Shown here in pieces: positions 24,900-34,390 of a DNA stretch of 36,300 nt. Made by a program: the position numbers and the translations under genes. The notes under the pieces are model-generated. The model was not told the DNA's origin and did not search any database. It saw only the letters and a list, made by a program, of their open reading frames with translations. How positions within the stretch are numbered: the stretch's first letter is position 1; every line of letters begins with the position of its first letter. The DNA is taken from assembly GCA_035512495.1 (NCBI GenBank), contig DATKDW010000051.1, positions 1-36,300 of the forward strand, given 5' to 3'. This DNA is from Acidimicrobiales bacterium. Lineage in GTDB: Bacteria > Actinomycetota > Acidimicrobiia > Acidimicrobiales > CADCSY01.

Positions 24900-25829
24900 T
24901 CAGGAAGTGGGACGGTCGACGGGATCGGTCGGGGCGGGGGGTGCGGTCTTGAGCTGGCGCTCGACCTCCTCCCACGTCAACGTCCCGGCCGCCGTCGCGA
25001 CCGGTGCCCGCCGATCGAGCGGCATGCCACCGGCGCGGTCATCCTCCTGCTGCTTGGTGGCGAAGCGGATGAACAGCATGGCGATCACGAACCAGAGGTA
25101 GAAGCCGCCGACGGTCTTCATCACCAGGCCGGCCAGCTGCTGGTCGTGGGCCACCGACATGCCGGCGAGGCGGGTGGGCACGTCGTAGGCCTTGTAGACG
25201 ACGCCCTCGGCGAAGGTCAGCCACCCGGCGGGCACGGTCGGGATGATCGACTGCATGAACAGGAAGATCATCTGCACCGGGAGGGTGAATCGCAGCTCCG
25301 GCAGCGGGCCCGCCACCGGGGTCCACATGATGAGGGCGGCGGCGACCACGACCACGTGCACCAGGTAGTGCAGCGGCGCACTGGACGCCGACGCGTTGAC
25401 CACGCCAGGGATGTGGGTCGCGGCGACCACGGCGTTGAAGATCAACGTGGCAGTGACCGGTCGGGTGAGGAAGCGCAGCACCCGATACGGCACCCCGCTG
25501 CCCACCACCATCCGGGCGAGCCAGGTGGGCGTCGCCAGCAGGACCATCGGGGGGATCACCAGCGACAGCAGCAGGTGCTGGACCATGTGGACGCTGTAGA
25601 GGTAGCCCTCGGCGATGTCGTGCACAGGCCAGTCCGAGGCGACCCACAGCAGCACCAGGCCGGCGACGAACCAGCGGACCTGGCTGGCGGTCACCACCGG
25701 CTCGTCAGGACGGGTGGCCGTGGGCCCGATGCGGGTGATGGCGTACCAGTAGAGGAGGGCCAGGCCCCCGACCAGCACCCAGACCTCGGGGTGCGGGGTG
25801 AACCGCCAGGGGTCGGCCTGGGCGGCCAT
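24900..25829 (-). CDS. ctaG: Cytochrome c oxidase assembly protein, CtaG (caa3) family
   Basis: A 309-residue polytopic membrane protein of the caa3-type CtaG family found in Gram-positive bacteria, linked to maturation of the CuA/CuB copper sites. The N-terminus has DPWRFTPHPEVWVLVGG. Later come HMVQHLLLSLVIPPMVLLATP, where His and Pro are family-conserved, and MWTPVAGPLPELR; about seven helices in all, then a polar C-tail. The start is uncertain: the ATG at 25829 is used, but a GTG at 25865, two bases after the subunit IV stop, is possible and adds 12 residues. It is the last gene of the oxidase operon. Confidence 0.85.
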   Translation of the reverse strand: MAAQADPWRFTPHPEVWVLVGGLALLYWYAITRIGPTATRPDEPVVTASQVRWFVAGLVLLWVASDWPVHDIAEGYLYSVHMVQHLLLSLVIPPMVLLATPTWLARMVVGSGVPYRVLRFLTRPVTATLIFNAVVAATHIPGVVNASASSAPLHYLVHVVVVAAALIMWTPVAGPLPELRFTLPVQMIFLFMQSIIPTVPAGWLTFAEGVVYKAYDVPTRLAGMSVAHDQQLAGLVMKTVGGFYLWFVIAMLFIRFATKQQEDDRAGGMPLDRRAPVATAAGTLTWEEVERQLKTAPPAPTDPVDRPTS

Positions 25830-25867
25830 GGTGCTGCCGTGGACCAGCTCCGCCGAGGCACCCACGG

Positions 25868-26236
25868 TCAGCCCGACGAGCCCCAGAAGGAGAACGTGGC
25901 GAGGAACACGACGTAGACCGCGGCGGCCAGGGCGAGACCGGAGTAGAAGAGCCTGGTGAAGAGGTTGGAGTCGAAGCGCAGGTGCATGAAGAACGCGGCG
26001 ACGACCCAGAACTTGACCGCCATCATCAGCAGGAGCCCGGTGATCACGATCGTGTTCCCGAGGTCGTCCTCGAGGTAGTAGAAGAGGACCTCCACGGCGG
26101 TGATGGCGCCCAGGATCAGGGCGATCGTCGCGTACTTGCGGTCGTTGGGGTGCTCGTGGCCCGCCCCGGTGACCGTCTCCTCGTGCGCCGTGGGCGCCGA
26201 TGCGGGATCCTGCTCGAAGGTCTCGGTCTCGCTCAT
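25868..26236 (-). CDS. ctaF: Cytochrome c oxidase subunit IV (COX4_pro type)
   Basis: A 122-residue small oxidase subunit. About 35 acidic N-terminal residues precede three membrane helices: YATIALILGAITAVEVLFYY, NTIVITGLLLMMAVKFWVVA and the last from LFYSGLALAAAVYVVFLATF. The motif KFWVVAAFFMHLRFD between helices 2 and 3 is diagnostic of subunit IV of caa3 and quinol-oxidase type enzymes. It sits nine bases after ctaE. Its role in the complex is structural. Confidence 0.9.
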   Translation of the reverse strand: MSETETFEQDPASAPTAHEETVTGAGHEHPNDRKYATIALILGAITAVEVLFYYLEDDLGNTIVITGLLLMMAVKFWVVAAFFMHLRFDSNLFTRLFYSGLALAAAVYVVFLATFSFWGSSG

Positions 26237-26245
26237 GGTCGCCTC

Positions 26246-26890
26246 TTAGGGGACGAGGTAGATGACGGTGAAGATGATGATCCAGACGATGTCGACGAAG
26301 TGCCAGTAGAGGCCAACGATCTCGACCGTCTCCGAGCGCCCCGTGGGCAGTGAGCCCCGGTGCGACATCACGAACAGGCTCAGCAGCATCACGATGCCGA
26401 TCGTGACGTGCGCGCCGTGGAACCCGGTGAGCACGTAGAACGCCGAGCTCTGGATGTTGGTCGTGAAGCCCAGGCCCTCCCGGTAGAAGGCCGTGAACTC
26501 GTAGACCTGGCCGGCGACGAAGGTGGAGCCCAGCAGTGCGGTGGTGAGCAACCAGGTGCGGAGCTGGCGGTGGTTGCCCCGCTGGATCGCCGACAGGGCC
26601 AGCACCATGGTCAGCGAGCTCATCAACAGGATGAACGAGCTGACCGAGGTGAAGGGGATGTCGTAGAGCTCGCGCACCTCTGGCCCGCTGACGACCTCCT
26701 TTCCCCGGTAGAGCAGGAAGGTCGAGATCAGCCCGCCGAAGAGAAGGCACTCGGACCCGAGGAAGGTCCACATCGCCATCTTCTCGTTGGAGAGGCCGGT
26801 GCTCGTGTGGTGCCCGCCTCCGGCGTGCTCGGCGTGCGGCTCGTGCCCACCGGGGGGCACCACCATGGTCGACTGCTCGGTGGTGCTCAC
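26246..26890 (-). CDS. ctaE: Cytochrome c oxidase subunit III
   Basis: A 214-residue subunit III with about five helices. About 35 His-rich residues (GGHEPHAEHAGGGHHTS) precede helix 1, MAMWTFLGSECLLFGGLI. The family motifs GFHGAHVTIGI and YWHFVDIVWIIIF are intact. It stabilises the catalytic subunit and helps keep proton uptake active. Its start overlaps the ctaD stop by four bases (ATGA). The His-rich lead could bind copper, but this is speculation. Confidence 0.94.
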   Translation of the reverse strand: MSTTEQSTMVVPPGGHEPHAEHAGGGHHTSTGLSNEKMAMWTFLGSECLLFGGLISTFLLYRGKEVVSGPEVRELYDIPFTSVSSFILLMSSLTMVLALSAIQRGNHRQLRTWLLTTALLGSTFVAGQVYEFTAFYREGLGFTTNIQSSAFYVLTGFHGAHVTIGIVMLLSLFVMSHRGSLPTGRSETVEIVGLYWHFVDIVWIIIFTVIYLVP

Positions 26891-28917
26891 GAGGGCTCCT
26901 CCGTGGTGCCGGCGGCGACGGGGTCGGCCGCGGTGCCGGGGTCGTCGTCATCGTCGACCCGGTCGGGCTCGACGTGGCCGTGGCCGGCGTCGGGGTCGAC
27001 CGACGGCTCGAGGCTCCAGCCGTAGACGGATGCGATCAGGACGAGGCCGCCGAGGGCCGACAGCCAGTAGGTGAAGAGGAGGCCGTAGGCGATCAGTGGC
27101 AGGCCCAGGGCCAGCACGATCGGCCAGTACGACGGCGACGGCAGGTGGATCGACTCGGGCGGGGGTGCCGAGGTGCCACCTTCCTCGGGACCCACCACCG
27201 ACATCCACTCGTAGTCATCGCGCCGAACGATCACGCCGTGGTCGTCCTCGCCGTACTTGCGGTGCCACCACTCGTCGAGCTGGCTGACCGTCGGCTCGAT
27301 GTCGAAGTTGTGGGCCGGTGGCGGGGAGGAGATGGACCACTCGAGCGTGCGGGCGTCCCAGGGGTCGGCGCCGGCGGGCGGGTTGGCGCGGCTCTTCACC
27401 ACGTTGAAGATCCAGAGGAGGAACGACGCGGCGATCAGGTACGAGCCCCACGTCGCCAGCTGGTTCATCAGGTCCCAACCCATGCCCTCGGCGTAGGTCG
27501 CGGTGCGGCGGGGCTGGCCCTGGAGCCCGAGGATGTGCATCGGCCCGAACGTGAGGTTGAAGCCGGCGAACATCAGCCAGAAGTGAGCCTTGCCGATGGT
27601 CTCGCTCAGCATCCGCCCGAAGACCTTTGGCCACCAGAAGTAGACGCCGGCGAAGATGCCGAACATCGATCCGCCGAAGAGCACGTAGTGGAAGTGGGCG
27701 ACGATGTAGTACGTGTCGTGCTGCTGGGTGTCGTGCGGGGCGACCGAGTGGGTCACGCCCGAGAGGCCGCCGATCACGAACTGAGACACCAGCGCCACCG
27801 CGAAGAGCATGGGCACGGTGAAGTTCAGCTTCCCGTTCCAGAGGGTGGCGATCCAGTTGAAGATCTTCACGCCCGTGGGCACGGCGATGAACATCGTCGA
27901 CAGCGAGAAGGCCGCCACCGACACGGGGCCGAGCCCGGAGGCGAACATGTGGTGGGCCCACACGCCCCAGCCCATGAACCCGATGGCCACACCGGAGAAC
28001 ACCATGAACGGGTAGCCGAACAGCGGCTTACGGGCGAAGGCCGGGATGACCTCCGAGATGATGCCGAACGCCGGCAGGATCAGGATGTAGACCTCGGGGT
28101 GGCCGAAGATCCAGAAGAGGTGCTGCCACAGCAGCGGGTCGGCACCCTCGGCCACGTTGAAGAAGTTGGCGCCGAAGAGCCGGTCGAACATGAGCAGGAA
28201 CAGCGCCACGGTGATGACCGGGATGGCGAAGAGCAGCAGGAACTGCGCCACCAGGCTCATCCACACGAAGATCGGCATCCGCATGAGCGTCATGCCGGGG
28301 GCCCGCATGTTGATGACGGTGACGATCAGGTTGACCGCGCTCGCCAGCGAGGCGATGCCCGTGATCTGGAGGCCGAGCGTCCAGAAGTCCTGGCCCATCC
28401 CGGGCGAGTAGGCGAGGTTGTTGCTGAGGGGCGCGTACGAGGTCCAGCCGTTGTCGGGGGCGCCCCCGAGGAAGAAGCTGGAGTAGAGGAAGAGCCCGCC
28501 CGCCAGGAAGATCCAGTAGCTGAGGGCGTTCAGCCGGGGGAAGGCGACGTCGCGCGCCCCGATCATGAGCGGGATCAGGTAGTTCGCGAAGGCGGCCAGC
28601 ATCGGCATGATCACCAGGAAGACCATGGTGGTGCCGTGCATGGTGAAGGCCTGGTTGTAGGCCTGCTCGCTCAGCACCTGTCCGTCGGGTGTGGCCAGCT
28701 GCGTGCGGATGAGGAGCGCCTCGAGGCCGCCGATGGCGAAGAAGACCATCGCGGTGGCGCCGTACATGATGCCGATCTTCTTGTGGTCGACCGAGGTCAG
28801 CCACGAGCGCCAGCCGGTGGTGGCGGTGGGTCGCCGGAAGACGCCGAGGGGCTCGCGCCGCTCGGCGTCTTCCCCTGCCGTCAGCTCGAGGACGGGACGG
28901 TCGTCGGTCAGTGCCAT
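26887..28917 (-). CDS. ctaD: Cytochrome c oxidase subunit I (A1-type)
   Basis: A 676-residue catalytic subunit with every key residue: low-spin haem ligands His94 (FTMHG) and His410; CuB ligands His273, His322 and His323 with cross-link Tyr277 (GHPEVY, AHHM); haem a3 ligand His408 (AHFHYVLFGG); K-channel Lys351; and Glu275 of GHPEV, which marks the A1 branch. Beyond the 12 core helices it has a polar stretch with WHRKYGEDDHGV and two more helices near residues 590-640 (YWPIVLALGLPLIAYGLLF), then an acidic tail, so it is about 120 residues longer than minimal subunit I. This is the true oxidase; compare the degenerate paralogue at 31774-33378. Confidence 0.96.
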   Translation of the reverse strand: MALTDDRPVLELTAGEDAERREPLGVFRRPTATTGWRSWLTSVDHKKIGIMYGATAMVFFAIGGLEALLIRTQLATPDGQVLSEQAYNQAFTMHGTTMVFLVIMPMLAAFANYLIPLMIGARDVAFPRLNALSYWIFLAGGLFLYSSFFLGGAPDNGWTSYAPLSNNLAYSPGMGQDFWTLGLQITGIASLASAVNLIVTVINMRAPGMTLMRMPIFVWMSLVAQFLLLFAIPVITVALFLLMFDRLFGANFFNVAEGADPLLWQHLFWIFGHPEVYILILPAFGIISEVIPAFARKPLFGYPFMVFSGVAIGFMGWGVWAHHMFASGLGPVSVAAFSLSTMFIAVPTGVKIFNWIATLWNGKLNFTVPMLFAVALVSQFVIGGLSGVTHSVAPHDTQQHDTYYIVAHFHYVLFGGSMFGIFAGVYFWWPKVFGRMLSETIGKAHFWLMFAGFNLTFGPMHILGLQGQPRRTATYAEGMGWDLMNQLATWGSYLIAASFLLWIFNVVKSRANPPAGADPWDARTLEWSISSPPPAHNFDIEPTVSQLDEWWHRKYGEDDHGVIVRRDDYEWMSVVGPEEGGTSAPPPESIHLPSPSYWPIVLALGLPLIAYGLLFTYWLSALGGLVLIASVYGWSLEPSVDPDAGHGHVEPDRVDDDDDPGTAADPVAAGTTEEPS

Positions 28918-28933: not shown

Positions 28934-29965
28934 TCATCGCAGCGTCTCGAGGTAGGCGTACAGGGCGTCGATGTCGGCCTCGCTGAGCTCGCCGATCACC
29001 ATCAGGGAACCGGCCTTGCGCTGCGGGTCGCGCAGCCAGGCCTCGACCTCGTTGCGGTCGTTGAGGTCGTAGATGCACCCGGCGAAGCAGTCGCGGGTGA
29101 AGAGGTGGGTCAGGTCGGGCGCCGGCGGGGAGGTCTCCGAGACCACCTCGTACTGGCCCCGCACGTCGTGGCAGGCAGCGCAACCACGGGTCTCGAACAG
29201 CTCGAAGCCCTCGGCGGCGAGGCCGTCGGTGGGCGCCTCGGGGAGCTGGTGCTGGCTCTCGACCCAGGCGTCGAAACCGGCCTCGTCGTGTGCCACGACC
29301 TTCAGGCGCATGTTGGCGTGGGAGGCGCCGCAGAACTCGGCGCACTGGCCGGAGTAGACGCCGGGCTCGTCGGCCTCGATGGTCCAGGTGTGGACGCGGC
29401 CGGGGGTGACGTCGCGCTTGCCGTTGAGGCGAGGCGACCAGAACGAGTGGACGACGTCCTCGGAGGTCATCTCCAGGAACACGGGGCGCCCGGCGGGGAT
29501 GTGCAGCTCGTTGGCGGTGACGATGTCGCCGTGCTCGGGGTAGGAGAAGGCCCACCAGTACTGCTGACCGGTGACCTCCACCAAGATGGACTCGTCGGGG
29601 CGCTTGTCGTCGAGCTCGAAGATGACCGGCACGGTGAAGACGGCCATCACCGCGAGCACGAGGGCGGGGAGGATCGTCCAGCCAACCTCGAGGCGGGTGT
29701 TGCCGTGCGTCTGCTCGGGCCAGGCATCGTCGCCGTCCTTGCGACGGAACTTGATCACCGCGAAGACGATCGCGCCCTGGACGAGCACGAAGACGGCCAC
29801 CGCCACCCAGAACACGGGCACGAAGAGGTTGTGGACCGAGCGGGCGTAGGGGCCGGCCGGGTCGAGCGCGTCCTGGGGGGCGTCGCCGGCGCAGGCGCCC
29901 AGCACGAGCACCATCGTCGCGGGGCCGAGCCAGCGGAGCAGGCGGCGGGACTGGAGAACCTTCAT
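28934..29965 (-). CDS. ctaC: Cytochrome c oxidase subunit II with fused cytochrome c (caa3 type)
   Basis: A 343-residue lipoprotein-like subunit II. The signal peptide ends in the lipobox VLGAC (about residues 21-25). Two helices follow, then the CuA cupredoxin domain with the ligands in SGQCAEFCGASHANM. The C-terminal 100 residues form a cytochrome c domain with the haem site GCAACHDVRG, so the enzyme is caa3-type and carries its own cytochrome c. The start is the ATG at 29965, eight bases after CAGGAG; the frame opens earlier (30067) but that extension precedes the signal peptide. ctaD follows after 16 bases. Confidence 0.95.
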   Translation of the reverse strand: MKVLQSRRLLRWLGPATMVLVLGACAGDAPQDALDPAGPYARSVHNLFVPVFWVAVAVFVLVQGAIVFAVIKFRRKDGDDAWPEQTHGNTRLEVGWTILPALVLAVMAVFTVPVIFELDDKRPDESILVEVTGQQYWWAFSYPEHGDIVTANELHIPAGRPVFLEMTSEDVVHSFWSPRLNGKRDVTPGRVHTWTIEADEPGVYSGQCAEFCGASHANMRLKVVAHDEAGFDAWVESQHQLPEAPTDGLAAEGFELFETRGCAACHDVRGQYEVVSETSPPAPDLTHLFTRDCFAGCIYDLNDRNEVEAWLRDPQRKAGSLMVIGELSEADIDALYAYLETLR

Positions 29966-30083: not shown

Positions 30084-31112
30084 TCACGGGGTGCCGTGGG
30101 GGTCGTCCGCGGCCGGCTCCTGGGCCACGAGGGTCCCCTGCATGGTGGTGGGGTGCACGTCGCAGATGAAGGTGTGCTCGCCGGGAGGAGCGTTGATCAG
30201 GACCGTCGCGGCGTTCCCACCGGGGATGATCTCCGTGACGGCGTCGTCGAGGCCCTGGATGTGGACGTTGTGCTGGACGGTCTCGTCGTCGTGGTTCTCG
30301 AAGACGATCGTCACGTCGGTGTCGGCGTCGAGCGTCACCACCTCCTGGTCGAAGCCGGTCGCGCTCGACGCCGAGATGACGACGTCGGCGTCGGACTCGA
30401 CGTCAGCGTGGTCGTCGCCGTAGTGGTGGAACTCGCGCTCGCCGGCGACTGCGCCGATGATGCCCCCACCCAGGAGGGCGATCACCCCGAGGACGACGAT
30501 GCCGCTGATCAGCGAGGAGCTCAGCTGCGGCCGGTTGGCCAGGATCGCGGCGATGCTCAACACGAGGGCGGCGATGAGGATGGCGACCACGGAGGACCCG
30601 GTCTGCGGCAGCGCCAGCAGCACCCGGGAGAACGCCAGCACCACCACCGCGAAGCCGATCACGGCAAGGGCGGGGATCTCGAGGGGGAACATGATCCGGT
30701 TCCGGAGCCCCTGGTTTGCGCCGGGGTCGGACGAAGCCCGCTCGGCCCATGCCTGGACCATCCACTCGACGAGGACGACGCCGAGGAGGGCGAGGCCTGC
30801 GTAGAGAAAGGCGTTGCCGGCGGCGAAGCCGATGACGGTGAGGGCCACGCCGACCGCCGACAAGGCGGGCCAGAGGGCAGGGAGAGCGTGGGGGTGGGGT
30901 ACCTCGGTGACGGTGGCGCCTTCGGCGGGCGCAGCGACGTCTCCGTCGCGGACCACCGTCGCCGTGGTCCCGAGGACCGCGGCGGCGACACCGGCGAAGG
31001 CCAGGACGATGGCCCCGTACTCCTCGCCACTGGTGGCGACGAAGTAGACGCCGGCAGCCACGAAGGCCAGGAGGGCGATGGCGTACCAGAGCTTGGCGCC
31101 GGTGGTGATCAT
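30084..31112 (-). CDS. Seven-helix membrane protein with C-terminal type 1 copper (cupredoxin) domain
   Basis: 342 residues. About seven hydrophobic segments fill residues 8-223 (such as LWYAIALLAFVAAGVYFVA, AFLYAGLALLGVVLVEWMV and LISGIVVLGVIALLGGGIIG). After a His/Asp-rich hinge (EFHHYGDDHADVESDAD) a cupredoxin domain runs to the end, with the ligand set His281 (QHNVHIQG), Cys317, His320 and Met324 (FICDVHPTTMQG). The domain should face outside and carry electrons. Its start overlaps the COX III-like stop by four bases (ATGA), so it belongs to the COX I-like module; ctaC follows after 118 bases. I do not know a characterised protein with this layout. The copper domain is secure; the role is inferred. 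Confidence 0.8.
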   Translation of the reverse strand: MITTGAKLWYAIALLAFVAAGVYFVATSGEEYGAIVLAFAGVAAAVLGTTATVVRDGDVAAPAEGATVTEVPHPHALPALWPALSAVGVALTVIGFAAGNAFLYAGLALLGVVLVEWMVQAWAERASSDPGANQGLRNRIMFPLEIPALAVIGFAVVVLAFSRVLLALPQTGSSVVAILIAALVLSIAAILANRPQLSSSLISGIVVLGVIALLGGGIIGAVAGEREFHHYGDDHADVESDADVVISASSATGFDQEVVTLDADTDVTIVFENHDDETVQHNVHIQGLDDAVTEIIPGGNAATVLINAPPGEHTFICDVHPTTMQGTLVAQEPAADDPHGTP

Positions 31113-31774
31113 GTGGAGCCAGGACCTCCCTCGAGGAACCAGACGCACCACCACACCACGACGCCCGCGAGGGCGACGAAGTGCCAGACGATGGCGGCGG
31201 CGGCGACGAACTCGCTGTTGCGCGGGCTGAGCTGCCCGCCGAGGGCCCGGAAGCCCATGACCACGAACACGGCGACGGCGGCCACCACCATCAGGAGGTG
31301 GGTCACCGTCACCAGGTACATGGCGTTGGCCACCGCCGACTCACCGGCGGCCAGGCCGAGGACGTCCCATGAGAACGACAGGGCGTTCACGAAGGCCAGG
31401 CCCAGGAGGATGGTGATCCCGACAGCCAGGTACAGCTGGCGCCGCTCACCGATCTTGACCGCGGCCACAGCCCACTGGGCGGTGACCATCGACATCAGGA
31501 GGGTGCCGTAGGCCACGACCAGGGGGACGTTGGGCAGGTCGGCCCCGAGCCACTCCTCCCCGGCACCGGTGGTGGCCTCCCGGGCGGCGAAGTAGCTGGC
31601 CAGCACGCCAGCGAGGAGCATGATCCCGGCCGCGACGGCGAAGAGGGCGCCCACCACGACGGTGTTGCGGCGACGGGGCTCAGGCGCCGGGGGAAGGCCC
31701 AGCAGGGACATCGGAGCCCCCTCTTCGGTCGCCGCTGCGGCGCCGGAGCGGGAGACGTCGGTGGAGACGGCCAT
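31109..31774 (-). CDS. COX III-like membrane protein (divergent paralogue)
   Basis: A 221-residue protein with about five helices aligning with oxidase subunit III: VVAYGTLLMSMVTAQWAVAA, the VTHLLMVVAAVAVFVVMGFR helix in place of GFHGAHVTIGI, and the ending IVWHFVALAGVVVWWCVWF, like YWHFVDIVWIIIF. An N-terminal polar stretch of 36 residues precedes helix 1. The canonical GFHGAH motif is not kept. It shares one base with the COX I-like stop (TGATG) and overlaps the cupredoxin gene by four bases, so the three are coupled. It probably pairs with the degenerate COX I-like protein. Confidence 0.78.
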   Translation of the reverse strand: MAVSTDVSRSGAAAATEEGAPMSLLGLPPAPEPRRRNTVVVGALFAVAAGIMLLAGVLASYFAAREATTGAGEEWLGADLPNVPLVVAYGTLLMSMVTAQWAVAAVKIGERRQLYLAVGITILLGLAFVNALSFSWDVLGLAAGESAVANAMYLVTVTHLLMVVAAVAVFVVMGFRALGGQLSPRNSEFVAAAAIVWHFVALAGVVVWWCVWFLEGGPGST

Positions 31775-33378
31775 CAGGCGGGGACCTCCGTGTCGCTGCG
31801 GGCGTCGAGCACCGGGGTGGGTGAGGTGACGACGGGGACGGTGCCGACGAAGTTGCCCGGCGGGGGCGGTGAGGTCGTGGCCCACTCGAGGGTGTGGCCA
31901 CCCCAGGGGTCGGCGGTGGCCCGCACGCCATTCCCGCGGCCCACGCTCGAGAGGAGGGAGCCGACAGCGACGAGGACGCCGAGGATGCCGAGGACGCCGC
32001 CGACGAGGCTCACCACGTTGAGGCCGACGAGGAGGTTCCCGTCGAGGGTCGCCGAGCGCACGGCCTGGTCCTCGACGAGGCCGGCCACGAGGTCCGGGGC
32101 GGCCAGGAGGAGGGCACCGAGGAACGTGAGGGCGAAGACGGCCTTGCCGGCGAGCTCACCCAGGTGGACGCCCCAGATCTTGGGGGCCCAGTACCAGAGG
32201 GCGGCAAAGGCGCCGAGGACGGCACCGCCGTAGAGGGTGAGGTGGATCTGGCCGACCTGCCAGACCATGCCGTCGAGCTCGAGGGGCTCGATCACCGACG
32301 CCGCGCCGGCCAGGGCCCCGAGGAAGAGGAGCACCACAGCGCCGAGCGCGAGCAGCAGCGAGGACGAGAGGGTGAGACGTCCCCGGCGGAGGGTGTCGCC
32401 CAGCAGGCCGACGAGCGCCAGGGCGGGCAGGAGCGATGCCAGGCCCATGGCGACGAAGACCAGGCTGCCGATCCCGCTGGTGGCCTCCTCGAGGCGAACG
32501 AAGGCGCCGAAGCCGAGGGCGCCCATGGCACCGAGGACGATGATCCCCGCGGCGTGCACCCGGTAGCGGCTGGCGCCGATCACCGGCACGATCTCGAGGG
32601 CCACACCGGCGGCCGGCACCACCAGCAGGTAGACGGTCGGGACCGACCAGAACCAGGAGATGTCGGCGTAGGACCCGACCTCGCCGCCGTAGCGGTGGGC
32701 GATGAGGAGCTCGATCAGACGGGCGATGAGCACGGGGCTGGTGAGCAGGGTGAGGCCACCGCCCACGAGGATCGACCAGGTGAACAGCGGCGTGCGCAGC
32801 AGCGTCATGCCGGGGGCCCGCTCGGTGACGATCGTGGTGAGCACGCTGCCGAGGGCGACGCAGGTGGCCGTGGCGAGGGCGATCAGCGACAGCAGGTAGA
32901 GGTCGACGGCCACCGCGTCGCCACCCGTGATGCCGCCGTCGGCCGCGTAGGCGCCGACCAGGACCAGGCCCGAGGCCAGATAGGTCCAGTAGGCGGCCGC
33001 CGCGCCCCGGGGGAAGGCGATGTCGGGGGCACCGACCTGCAGCGGGACGAGGTAGGTGGCCAGGCCAAGGAAGAACGGGACCAGGAACAGCAGGACGGCG
33101 ACCTCGCCGTGGAAGGTGTGGAGCTGCTCGAAGCTGCCCGAGGAGACGAGGGCCAGGCCGCTGTCGATGCGCTCGACGCCGAGGATGGCGCCCACCACGC
33201 CCCCCACCACCAGGAACGCCAACGACGTGACGAGGTACATGCGCCCCACCCGCTTGTGGTCGGCGGTGGAGAGCCAGCCGGCCAGGCCCGCGAGCTCCGA
33301 CGGGAGGACCGGCACGTCGGTCGTCGTGGAGCCGGCCGGAGCGGTGCCGGGGGCCTCTGTGGTCTCGGTCATCGACAT
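31774..33378 (-). CDS. COX I-like protein lacking the oxygen-reducing centre
   Basis: A 534-residue, roughly 12-helix relative of oxidase subunit I. Shared landmarks are ADHKRVGRMYLV, TYLVPLQVGAPDIAFPR, ERAPGMTLLRTPLF, YWAPKIWG and the tail DPWGGHTLEWATTSPPPP. Low-spin haem ligands are kept: His90 (HTFHGE) and His379 (IHLTLYGG). The CuB His-Pro-Glu-Val-Tyr is Val246-Pro-Thr-Val-Tyr250, the His-His pair is gone (GAFVRLEEATSG), the haem a3 ligand is Gln377, and the K-channel Lys region reads SLLPALALVG. It cannot reduce oxygen in the usual way. The frame is intact, with ordinary codon use. It is translationally coupled to the COX III-like and cupredoxin genes. Confidence 0.85.
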   Translation of the reverse strand: MSMTETTEAPGTAPAGSTTTDVPVLPSELAGLAGWLSTADHKRVGRMYLVTSLAFLVVGGVVGAILGVERIDSGLALVSSGSFEQLHTFHGEVAVLLFLVPFFLGLATYLVPLQVGAPDIAFPRGAAAAYWTYLASGLVLVGAYAADGGITGGDAVAVDLYLLSLIALATATCVALGSVLTTIVTERAPGMTLLRTPLFTWSILVGGGLTLLTSPVLIARLIELLIAHRYGGEVGSYADISWFWSVPTVYLLVVPAAGVALEIVPVIGASRYRVHAAGIIVLGAMGALGFGAFVRLEEATSGIGSLVFVAMGLASLLPALALVGLLGDTLRRGRLTLSSSLLLALGAVVLLFLGALAGAASVIEPLELDGMVWQVGQIHLTLYGGAVLGAFAALWYWAPKIWGVHLGELAGKAVFALTFLGALLLAAPDLVAGLVEDQAVRSATLDGNLLVGLNVVSLVGGVLGILGVLVAVGSLLSSVGRGNGVRATADPWGGHTLEWATTSPPPPGNFVGTVPVVTSPTPVLDARSDTEVPA

Positions 33379-33493: not shown

Positions 33494-34390
33494 TCACACC
33501 CCGGAGCGAAGCAGCTGGTCGAGGGCCATGGCCCCGAACAGGAGGCTGATGTAGGTGATGGACCAGGTGAAGAGGCGCATCGCCCTCGCCGGGGTCGAGT
33601 CCCGGAGCAGCTGCACCGAGAACCAGGTGAAGATCGCACCCAGCACGACCGCAGCCACGAGGTAGATGGCCCCCATGCCCGCCACTGGCGAGAAGACCAG
33701 GGTGAGGGCCCAGAGGAGGAGCGTGTAGCCGAGGATCCGGATCGAGGTGGTGCGCAGGCTGGCCACGGCGGGCAGCATCGGGATGTCGGCAGCGGCGTAG
33801 TCGTCTCGGTAGCGCACGGCGAGGGCCCAGAAGTGAGGCGGGGTCCAGTAGAAGATGATGCCGAAGAGCACGATCGGCGCCCACGACAGCGAGTTCTGCA
33901 CCGCTGCCCAGCCCACCAGGACCGGCACGGCCCCGGCAGCGCCGCCGACGACGATGTTGCTGCTCGACGTGCGCTTCAGCCACAGCGAGTAGACGAAGAC
34001 GTAGAACGCCGTGGCGCTGACGGCCAGGACGGCGCTCAGGAGGTTGACCGTGCCCCAGAGCAGGGCGAACGCCGCCACCTCCAGCCCGATGGCGAAGACG
34101 AGGGCGTCGCGCGGAGCGATGAGGCCGGTGACCAAGGGACGGTTCTGGGTCCGCTTCATGATGGCGTCGATGTCGCGGTCGACGTACATGTTGATGGCGT
34201 TGGCGCCACCCGCGGCCAGCGCGCCGCCGGCAAGCGTGGCGAGGATGAGCCACAGCGAGGGCAGGCCCCCCGCGGCGACGATCATGGTCGGCACCGTGGT
34301 GATGAGGAGGAGCTCGATGATCCGCGGCTTGGTGAGGGCGAGATAGCCCGAGAGCCGGGTGCCGAGCGCCGGTCGGTCGACCTGGAGCAC
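33494..34390 (-). CDS. ctaB: Protohaem IX farnesyltransferase (haem O synthase)
   Basis: A 298-residue UbiA-family membrane enzyme that adds farnesyl diphosphate to haem B to give haem O. The two Asp-rich motifs are present: NAINMYVDRDIDAIMKRTQN near residue 66 and RYRDDYAAADIPMLP near residue 195. Nine hydrophobic segments are expected and fit. It starts at a GTG six bases after TAGGCT. The gene is first in the minus-strand run leading to the oxidase genes and divergent from ctaA, which carries out the next step. Confidence 0.95.
   Translation of the reverse strand: MLQVDRPALGTRLSGYLALTKPRIIELLLITTVPTMIVAAGGLPSLWLILATLAGGALAAGGANAINMYVDRDIDAIMKRTQNRPLVTGLIAPRDALVFAIGLEVAAFALLWGTVNLLSAVLAVSATAFYVFVYSLWLKRTSSSNIVVGGAAGAVPVLVGWAAVQNSLSWAPIVLFGIIFYWTPPHFWALAVRYRDDYAAADIPMLPAVASLRTTSIRILGYTLLLWALTLVFSPVAGMGAIYLVAAVVLGAIFTWFSVQLLRDSTPARAMRLFTWSITYISLLFGAMALDQLLRSGV

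Follow-up and report, generated by a model that had tools for sequence, protein, structure and literature searches.

Few enzymes are as well studied as the haem-copper oxidases, whose metal ligands are regarded as invariant. The A-type subunit I (CtaD or CoxA; PF00115, TIGR02891) has a fold of 12 helices carrying a histidine pair for low-spin haem, a CuB site and a haem a3 ligand, and in the oxidase of the actinobacterial bcc-aa3 supercomplex (CtaC-D-E-F; 6adq, 8hcr, 7q21) it is accompanied by CtaC with CuA, by CtaE and by CtaF. Membrane-bound cupredoxins encoded near COX genes ('Cup') are linked to heme A oxidases in PMC8239418, which cites Degli Esposti 2020. Here we describe a module of three genes, coxI*, coxIII* and the gene for a CU protein, from a 36,300-nucleotide stretch of an Acidimicrobiales genome (assembly GCA_035512495.1, contig DATKDW010000051.1), hereafter the window. 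The module looks like a CtaD-E-F set without CtaC, seemingly duplicated, and lies beside the genes of an intact caa3 oxidase. We regard it, with a probability of about 60%, as a non-catalytic 'pseudo-oxidase' that arose from a duplicated CtaD-CtaE-CtaF set and serves as an accessory partner of the neighbouring caa3. The new aspect is an oxidase core by descent whose job is not that of its family. The module was not described in the literature searched, where subscription journals were thinly covered, including the accessible parts of PMC8239418, PMC9145763 and PMC8357290.

The product of coxI* is a haem-copper oxidase subunit I by descent. It matches PF00115 with 200.5 bits against a cut-off of 34.8 and shares 30.8% identity with the genome's own CtaD, which is encoded two genes downstream of the module. 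Its AlphaFold2 model is confident (predicted local distance difference test score, pLDDT, 88.1; predicted template modelling score 0.90), and among solved folds COX1 from the supercomplexes of mycobacteria and corynebacteria comes closest (Foldseek E 8.6e-24 to 9gy6_F). It resembles the A-type subunit I in fold, in its 12 helices and in the histidine pair for low-spin haem that the window's copy retains; it differs in lacking the CuB site and the haem a3 ligand, and its score of 257.3 bits against TIGR02891 falls far below the cut-off of 670.75. In alignment to the window's CtaD, the low-spin haem histidines are kept in helix II (TFHG) and helix X (QIH). In helix VI, HPEVY has become VPTVY, which retains the tyrosine and loses the CuB ligand; the histidine pair of helix VII is also lost, so that none of the three CuB histidines remains, and in helix X the haem a3 ligand is changed from histidine to glutamine. 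The CtaD segment PTGVKIFNW, which we take to hold the K-channel lysine, reads PALALVGLL. The coxI* product cannot carry out oxygen chemistry at the canonical site; the remaining ligand pair is that of a low-spin haem protein, and haem binding is predicted. The preliminary description of a degenerate COX I without oxygen chemistry is thus borne out for the window. A second oxygen reductase was considered and rejected, there being no binuclear centre.

coxIII* encodes a subunit III paralogue, which aligns to the window's own CtaE. The CU protein consists of a CtaF (COX IV)-like half (approximately residues 1-125), three more helices and a C-terminal type 1 cupredoxin domain (PF13473) with a complete ligand set of H, C, H and M. 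A profile of 20 CU proteins finds short genes elsewhere that match only the first half of CU, several of them directly downstream of another ctaD (G581, G570, G059, G575, G727); one stand-alone CtaF-like gene that was tested scores 9.5e-14 against PF12270. In other classes of the phylum the second half, three helices plus cupredoxin, occurs as a separate protein: of 20 loci read there, some of them truncated at contig ends, most have it downstream of ctaCDE-COX4; this three-helix cupredoxin is a widespread companion of caa3 operons. Since the first half is found beside ctaD and the second beside ctaCDE-COX4, CU is best read as a fusion of a CtaF-like half with a caa3-linked three-helix cupredoxin. 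CU matches the CtaF chain 8hcr_H with E 0.013, and CtaF chains appear in its fold list at Z about 7, a list so full of common helical bundles that this is weak alone. No Pfam or NCBIfam match above cut-off was found in CU outside the cupredoxin, and PF12270 was not among the families listed (25 of 26) in a scan of 27 CU proteins. The CU model has 7 helices; its cupredoxin domain is poorly modelled (pLDDT about 40-55), because hardly any row of its alignment carries that domain. The membrane cupredoxin of the preliminary description stands as regards its type 1 ligands and is refined as regards the rest of the protein.

The module shares with the bcc-aa3 oxidase the CtaF-like half of CU as well as its closest solved subunit I, and is unlike it in lacking CtaC with CuA and in having the CtaF-like part fused to three helices and a cupredoxin. 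CU and 'Cup' are alike by description, both being membrane-anchored cupredoxins linked to heme A oxidases; CU differs in its fusion to a CtaF-like half and in its place within a pseudo-oxidase gene set. That CU might be a disguised subunit II with CuA was rejected: the ligands are those of type 1, the domain has one cysteine and there is no COX2 match. Among the three-helix type 1 cupredoxins downstream of ctaCDE-COX4 (L099-L118), some have further adjoining cupredoxin domains. In one family of the order (L038, L040, L046), CU carries a C-terminal tail of about 150 residues without copper ligands; it might be a decayed cupredoxin, which is not claimed here, no Pfam cupredoxin being found in L046. 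The C-terminal tail of the window's ctaD product matches actinobacterial COX IV (PF12270, 2.6e-06), and the catalytic CtaD appears to carry a fused part of CtaF there.

The gene set is nearly constant across the order. The CU profile matches 262 of 397 Acidimicrobiales genomes at E 1e-25, and 63 of the 64 loci fetched contain CU. Among these 63, coxIII* adjoins CU in 60 (two are cut by contig ends and in one it was not found), coxI* is present in 59 and ctaB lies upstream in 57, the remaining four and six respectively being cut by contig ends, and ctaC lies within 2.5 kb in 58. The near-constant order is ctaB-coxI*-coxIII*-CU-ctaC-ctaD-ctaE-COX4. When coxI* was used as the seed, 45 of 80 named loci had coxI* and 42 of the 45 also had CU, while the other three (L165, L180, L190) are at contig ends; the record names assign the module to Acidimicrobiales, with assemblies of Candidatus Microthrix and of Acidimicrobiaceae among its carriers. 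No relative turned up when viral contigs were scanned. It had been supposed that the three genes belong together and are made together; the survey of loci, which could have found them regularly apart, found coxIII* and coxI* beside CU; it did not refute this and lends it support.

The module also follows one CtaD subtype. We compared CtaD across 71 genomes, a chosen and not a random subset of those searched, and found a CtaD at least 61% identical to the window's in 33 of 36 module-positive genomes. Two of the others are G567, which has a 50% CtaD fragment together with a 60% fragment at the end of the module contig, and G582, whose best CtaD reaches 50%. Conversely, 33 of the 35 genomes without a strong CU match have only CtaDs of at most 53%; one further genome has no CtaD, and G578, with a CtaD of 64%, allows no verdict, its contig breaking off within ctaC.

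Selection and sequence conservation indicate that the coxI* product is being maintained. Of 16 close pairs, 15 give a ratio of non-synonymous to synonymous substitution rates (dN/dS) of 0.05-0.35 and one is saturated; the ratio is usually higher than for CtaD of the two genomes concerned, reaching roughly four times its value. Where the low-spin haem histidines are absent, the ratios include 0.11 (L177/L187), 0.11 (L196/L204) and 0.05 (L186/L182), so that purifying selection is apparent in coxI* even where these ligands are gone. Over 59 rows, the positions kept in coxI* cluster on the cytoplasmic side, as assigned from the helices of its model. They comprise D-H-K close to the N-terminus, P-L-Q-x-G and A-F-P-R following helix II, R-x-P-x-F-x-W where helix V begins, W-x-P-K where helix X finishes and D-P-W-G-x-T-L-E-W close to the C-terminus; motifs such as P-L-Q-x-G and A-F-P-R are kept, position by position, in 47 to 59 of the 59 rows. 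Taking CtaD positions conserved in at least 95% of 49 rows as near-invariant, and scoring them as kept in coxI* when present in at least 80% of 59 rows, 28 of 82 survive on the cytoplasmic side against 7 of 102 on the outer side (Fisher p 3e-6). This shows that the cytoplasmic face of coxI* is the face that still matters.

The cofactor sites, by contrast with the gene set and the cytoplasmic face, vary. Our tables comprise 59 rows, namely 58 loci and the window, five of the 63 CU loci having been dropped where the coxI* stretch was too short. The low-spin haem pair is kept in 29 modules and the copper site in 24; both sites are present in 22, haem alone in 7, copper alone in 2 and neither in 28. 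All three CuB histidines are found in none of the 59, and a minority of relatives have a histidine at the haem a3 site, in no case together with CuB. Six close relatives of the window (L122, L156-L160) have kept the haem pair and lost the copper site. In the named set of 45 coxI* rows, which overlaps the 59-row set and is not independent of it, the low-spin pair is kept in 5, the helix VII pair in none and the helix VI histidine in 15. These 15 (L196, L200, L204, L206, L218, L226, L228, L229, L230, L232-L236 and L238) keep the helix VI CuB histidine and tyrosine, and have lost the low-spin pair and the helix VII ligands. In alignment A2 the row L170 occurs twice and true oxidases of other bacteria are included.

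In a quickly built tree with 108 rows, the sequences of coxI* form one clade beside CtaD, with support of 100. Its two earliest-splitting groups mostly retain haem and copper sites and contain 20 of the 22 both-site modules, the window and L124 being the other two; the haem-less state requires at least four changes. Given this concentration in the first-splitting groups, a haem- and copper-bearing, CuB-less module is the likely early state, on a tree that is fast-evolving and long-branched.

That part of a duplicated oxidase has been kept after losing its oxygen centre suggests that it supports the enzyme and does not act as a catalyst, and the contrast between a constant gene set, operon place and cytoplasmic face on one side and variable metal sites on the other makes a non-catalytic partner of caa3 the simplest reading. 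Its common job would be structural or assembly-related and independent of redox cofactors; of the subunit I fold, the cytoplasmic face would have been retained and the cofactor-bearing outer half given up, and the partner may sit in the membrane beside caa3 or act during caa3 assembly. We infer that the module proteins form one complex and that this complex touches caa3, and the same holds for any path of electrons. Haem and copper would be older features, from an early state with one low-spin haem site and one outward-facing type 1 copper site, retained in the window's module and in early-branching lineages. Modules with both sites may accept or store electrons on their outer side, for instance on the way from a bc complex to the fused cytochrome c and CuA of caa3. 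A tentative elaboration, to which we give rather less than even odds, is a 'pseudo-complex IV', in which caa3 would form a hetero-complex with a second, non-catalytic core (CtaD*, CtaE*, CtaF*-cupredoxin) that was once a haem-copper relay and is a cofactor-free scaffold in many lineages. Several observations weigh against an accessory partner of caa3. In five CU loci (L047, L129, L132, L144, L149) ctaC is not within 2.5 kb; G577 has the module and a CtaD match of only 42%; and the losses on the outer side of coxI* are partly expected from cofactor loss alone. The raw table of haem against copper sites gives Fisher p 3e-8 when ancestry is ignored, which is no proof of coupling, since with ancestry respected only four to five independent contrasts remain and joint loss is not significant. 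Finally, coxI* evolves fast, so that some ligand calls depend on an uncertain alignment.

The preliminary description saw a haem-to-copper wire, in which the low-spin haem of coxI* and the outward copper of CU would pass electrons on, with quinol or a bc complex as the donor and caa3 or something outside the cell as the acceptor. The 22 both-site modules, the window among them, agree with such a wire, as do the two bc-type cytochrome b loci of this genome and the three-helix cupredoxins that accompany caa3 operons in other classes. It is not supported as a general task: 28 modules have neither site yet persist under apparent purifying selection, and 7 have a low-spin pair and no copper, including L122 and L156-L160. 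Sequence reading alone revealed no quinol site. We therefore consider the wire doubtful as an explanation of the module, while an added relay role appears possible in the window because both sites are intact there; the broader idea of a derived oxidase complex that has taken on a new task agrees with what was found. Handling of copper or haem for caa3 assembly, with CU giving copper to CuA or CuB and the shell of coxI* and coxIII* acting as a platform for assembly factors, would suit both the position between ctaB and ctaC and the conserved cytoplasmic face. We find it unlikely, as the CU copper site is missing in 35 of 59 modules and copper delivery therefore cannot be the common job, and as the CuA chaperones Sco and PCuAC described in PMC9145763 carry other motifs. 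Fast evolution and repeated ligand loss might instead betray a functionless duplicate in decay, but dN/dS is well below 1 in all computable pairs, frames are open and synteny is kept across the order, and the motifs persist in 47 to 59 of 59 rows; a decaying pseudogene is very improbable and was rejected on dN/dS.

The features of the locus are collected in the table below. The coxI* and coxIII* frames overlap by one base (TGATG), and coxIII* and CU by four (ATGA), by direct reading of the sequence. The coordinates and overlaps given for the module at the outset proved right, and its Pfam matches (COX1 5.9e-59, COX3 5.8e-08, Cupredoxin_1 4.1e-11) rule out chance. Its placement between ctaB and ctaCDE-COX4-ctaG was likewise confirmed by Pfam, the ctaG-like gene being putatively so named from its position, its length and the gene order. 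A ctaA-like gene (COX15-CtaA 1.2e-20) lies upstream on the opposite strand. Only two COX1 matches exist genome-wide, the intact ctaD and coxI*, and no cytochrome bd was found in the genome.

Table. Features of the window, with relatives of the L054 protein from other loci in the last row.
Feature	Coordinates	Strand	Description and evidence
coxI*	31774..33378	-	CtaD paralogue, 534 aa, 12 helices; COX1 5.9e-59
coxIII*	31109..31774	-	CtaE paralogue, 221 aa; COX3 5.8e-08, alignment to own CtaE
CU protein	30084..31112	-	342 aa; ATG at 31112; Cupredoxin_1 4.1e-11 over residues 240-330
Type 1 cupredoxin domain of CU	30123..30395	-	Translation, Pfam, ligand pattern scan (His, Cys, His, Met)
ctaB, directly upstream of coxI*	33494..34390	-	UbiA 2.9e-65
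ctaC, directly downstream of CU	28934..29965	-	COX2, COX2_TM, Cytochrom_C; subunit II domains and fused cytochrome c
ctaD, intact catalytic subunit I	26887..28917	-	COX1 3.6e-163; HHYHHHH at seven checked sites
ctaE, intact subunit III	26246..26890	-	COX3 6.1e-18
COX4-type small subunit	25868..26236	-	COX4_pro 5.3e-10
ctaG-like gene	24900..25868	-	Open frame; position and length
L054-protein relatives	L255:7103-9070, L258:7207-9123, L262:7297-9192, L265:6613-8019

A comparable protein occurs outside the order. At L054:7090-9219 (minus strand), in another order, a 709-residue protein encoded directly upstream of ctaC joins a two-histidine oxidase fold (COX1 2.3e-27) to a three-helix type 1 cupredoxin, a second and apparently independent case of this cupredoxin being paired with a haem-less oxidase fold. 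Its relatives, in 42 of 148 genomes searched, have CcoN-like membrane parts seemingly without haem histidines; several are fused to a CcoO-like cytochrome c (CxxCH), and genomes near 1 Mb in size encode the protein unfused (468 aa). We assign the names CcoN and CcoO from our own reading of motifs. These proteins from other orders of the class (L054, L255, L258, L262, L265) resemble the module in having an oxidase fold with few membrane histidines; they differ in belonging to another oxidase lineage, CcoN-like by its motifs, in that some have the CcoO-like cytochrome c, and in their placement, none of the 16 loci read having caa3 genes next to an L054-protein relative.

COX1 matches in metagenomes cannot safely be taken for oxygen reductases, given that at 200 bits the window's pseudo-subunit clears the Pfam cut-off. 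In this case an oxidase core of three genes has been kept across an order although its oxygen site, and often every metal site, is gone. If the module is part of caa3, this would be a respiratory complex with an oxidase-derived scaffold, and if the pseudo-complex IV is real, the core of a respiratory enzyme would have been turned into a set of structural subunits.

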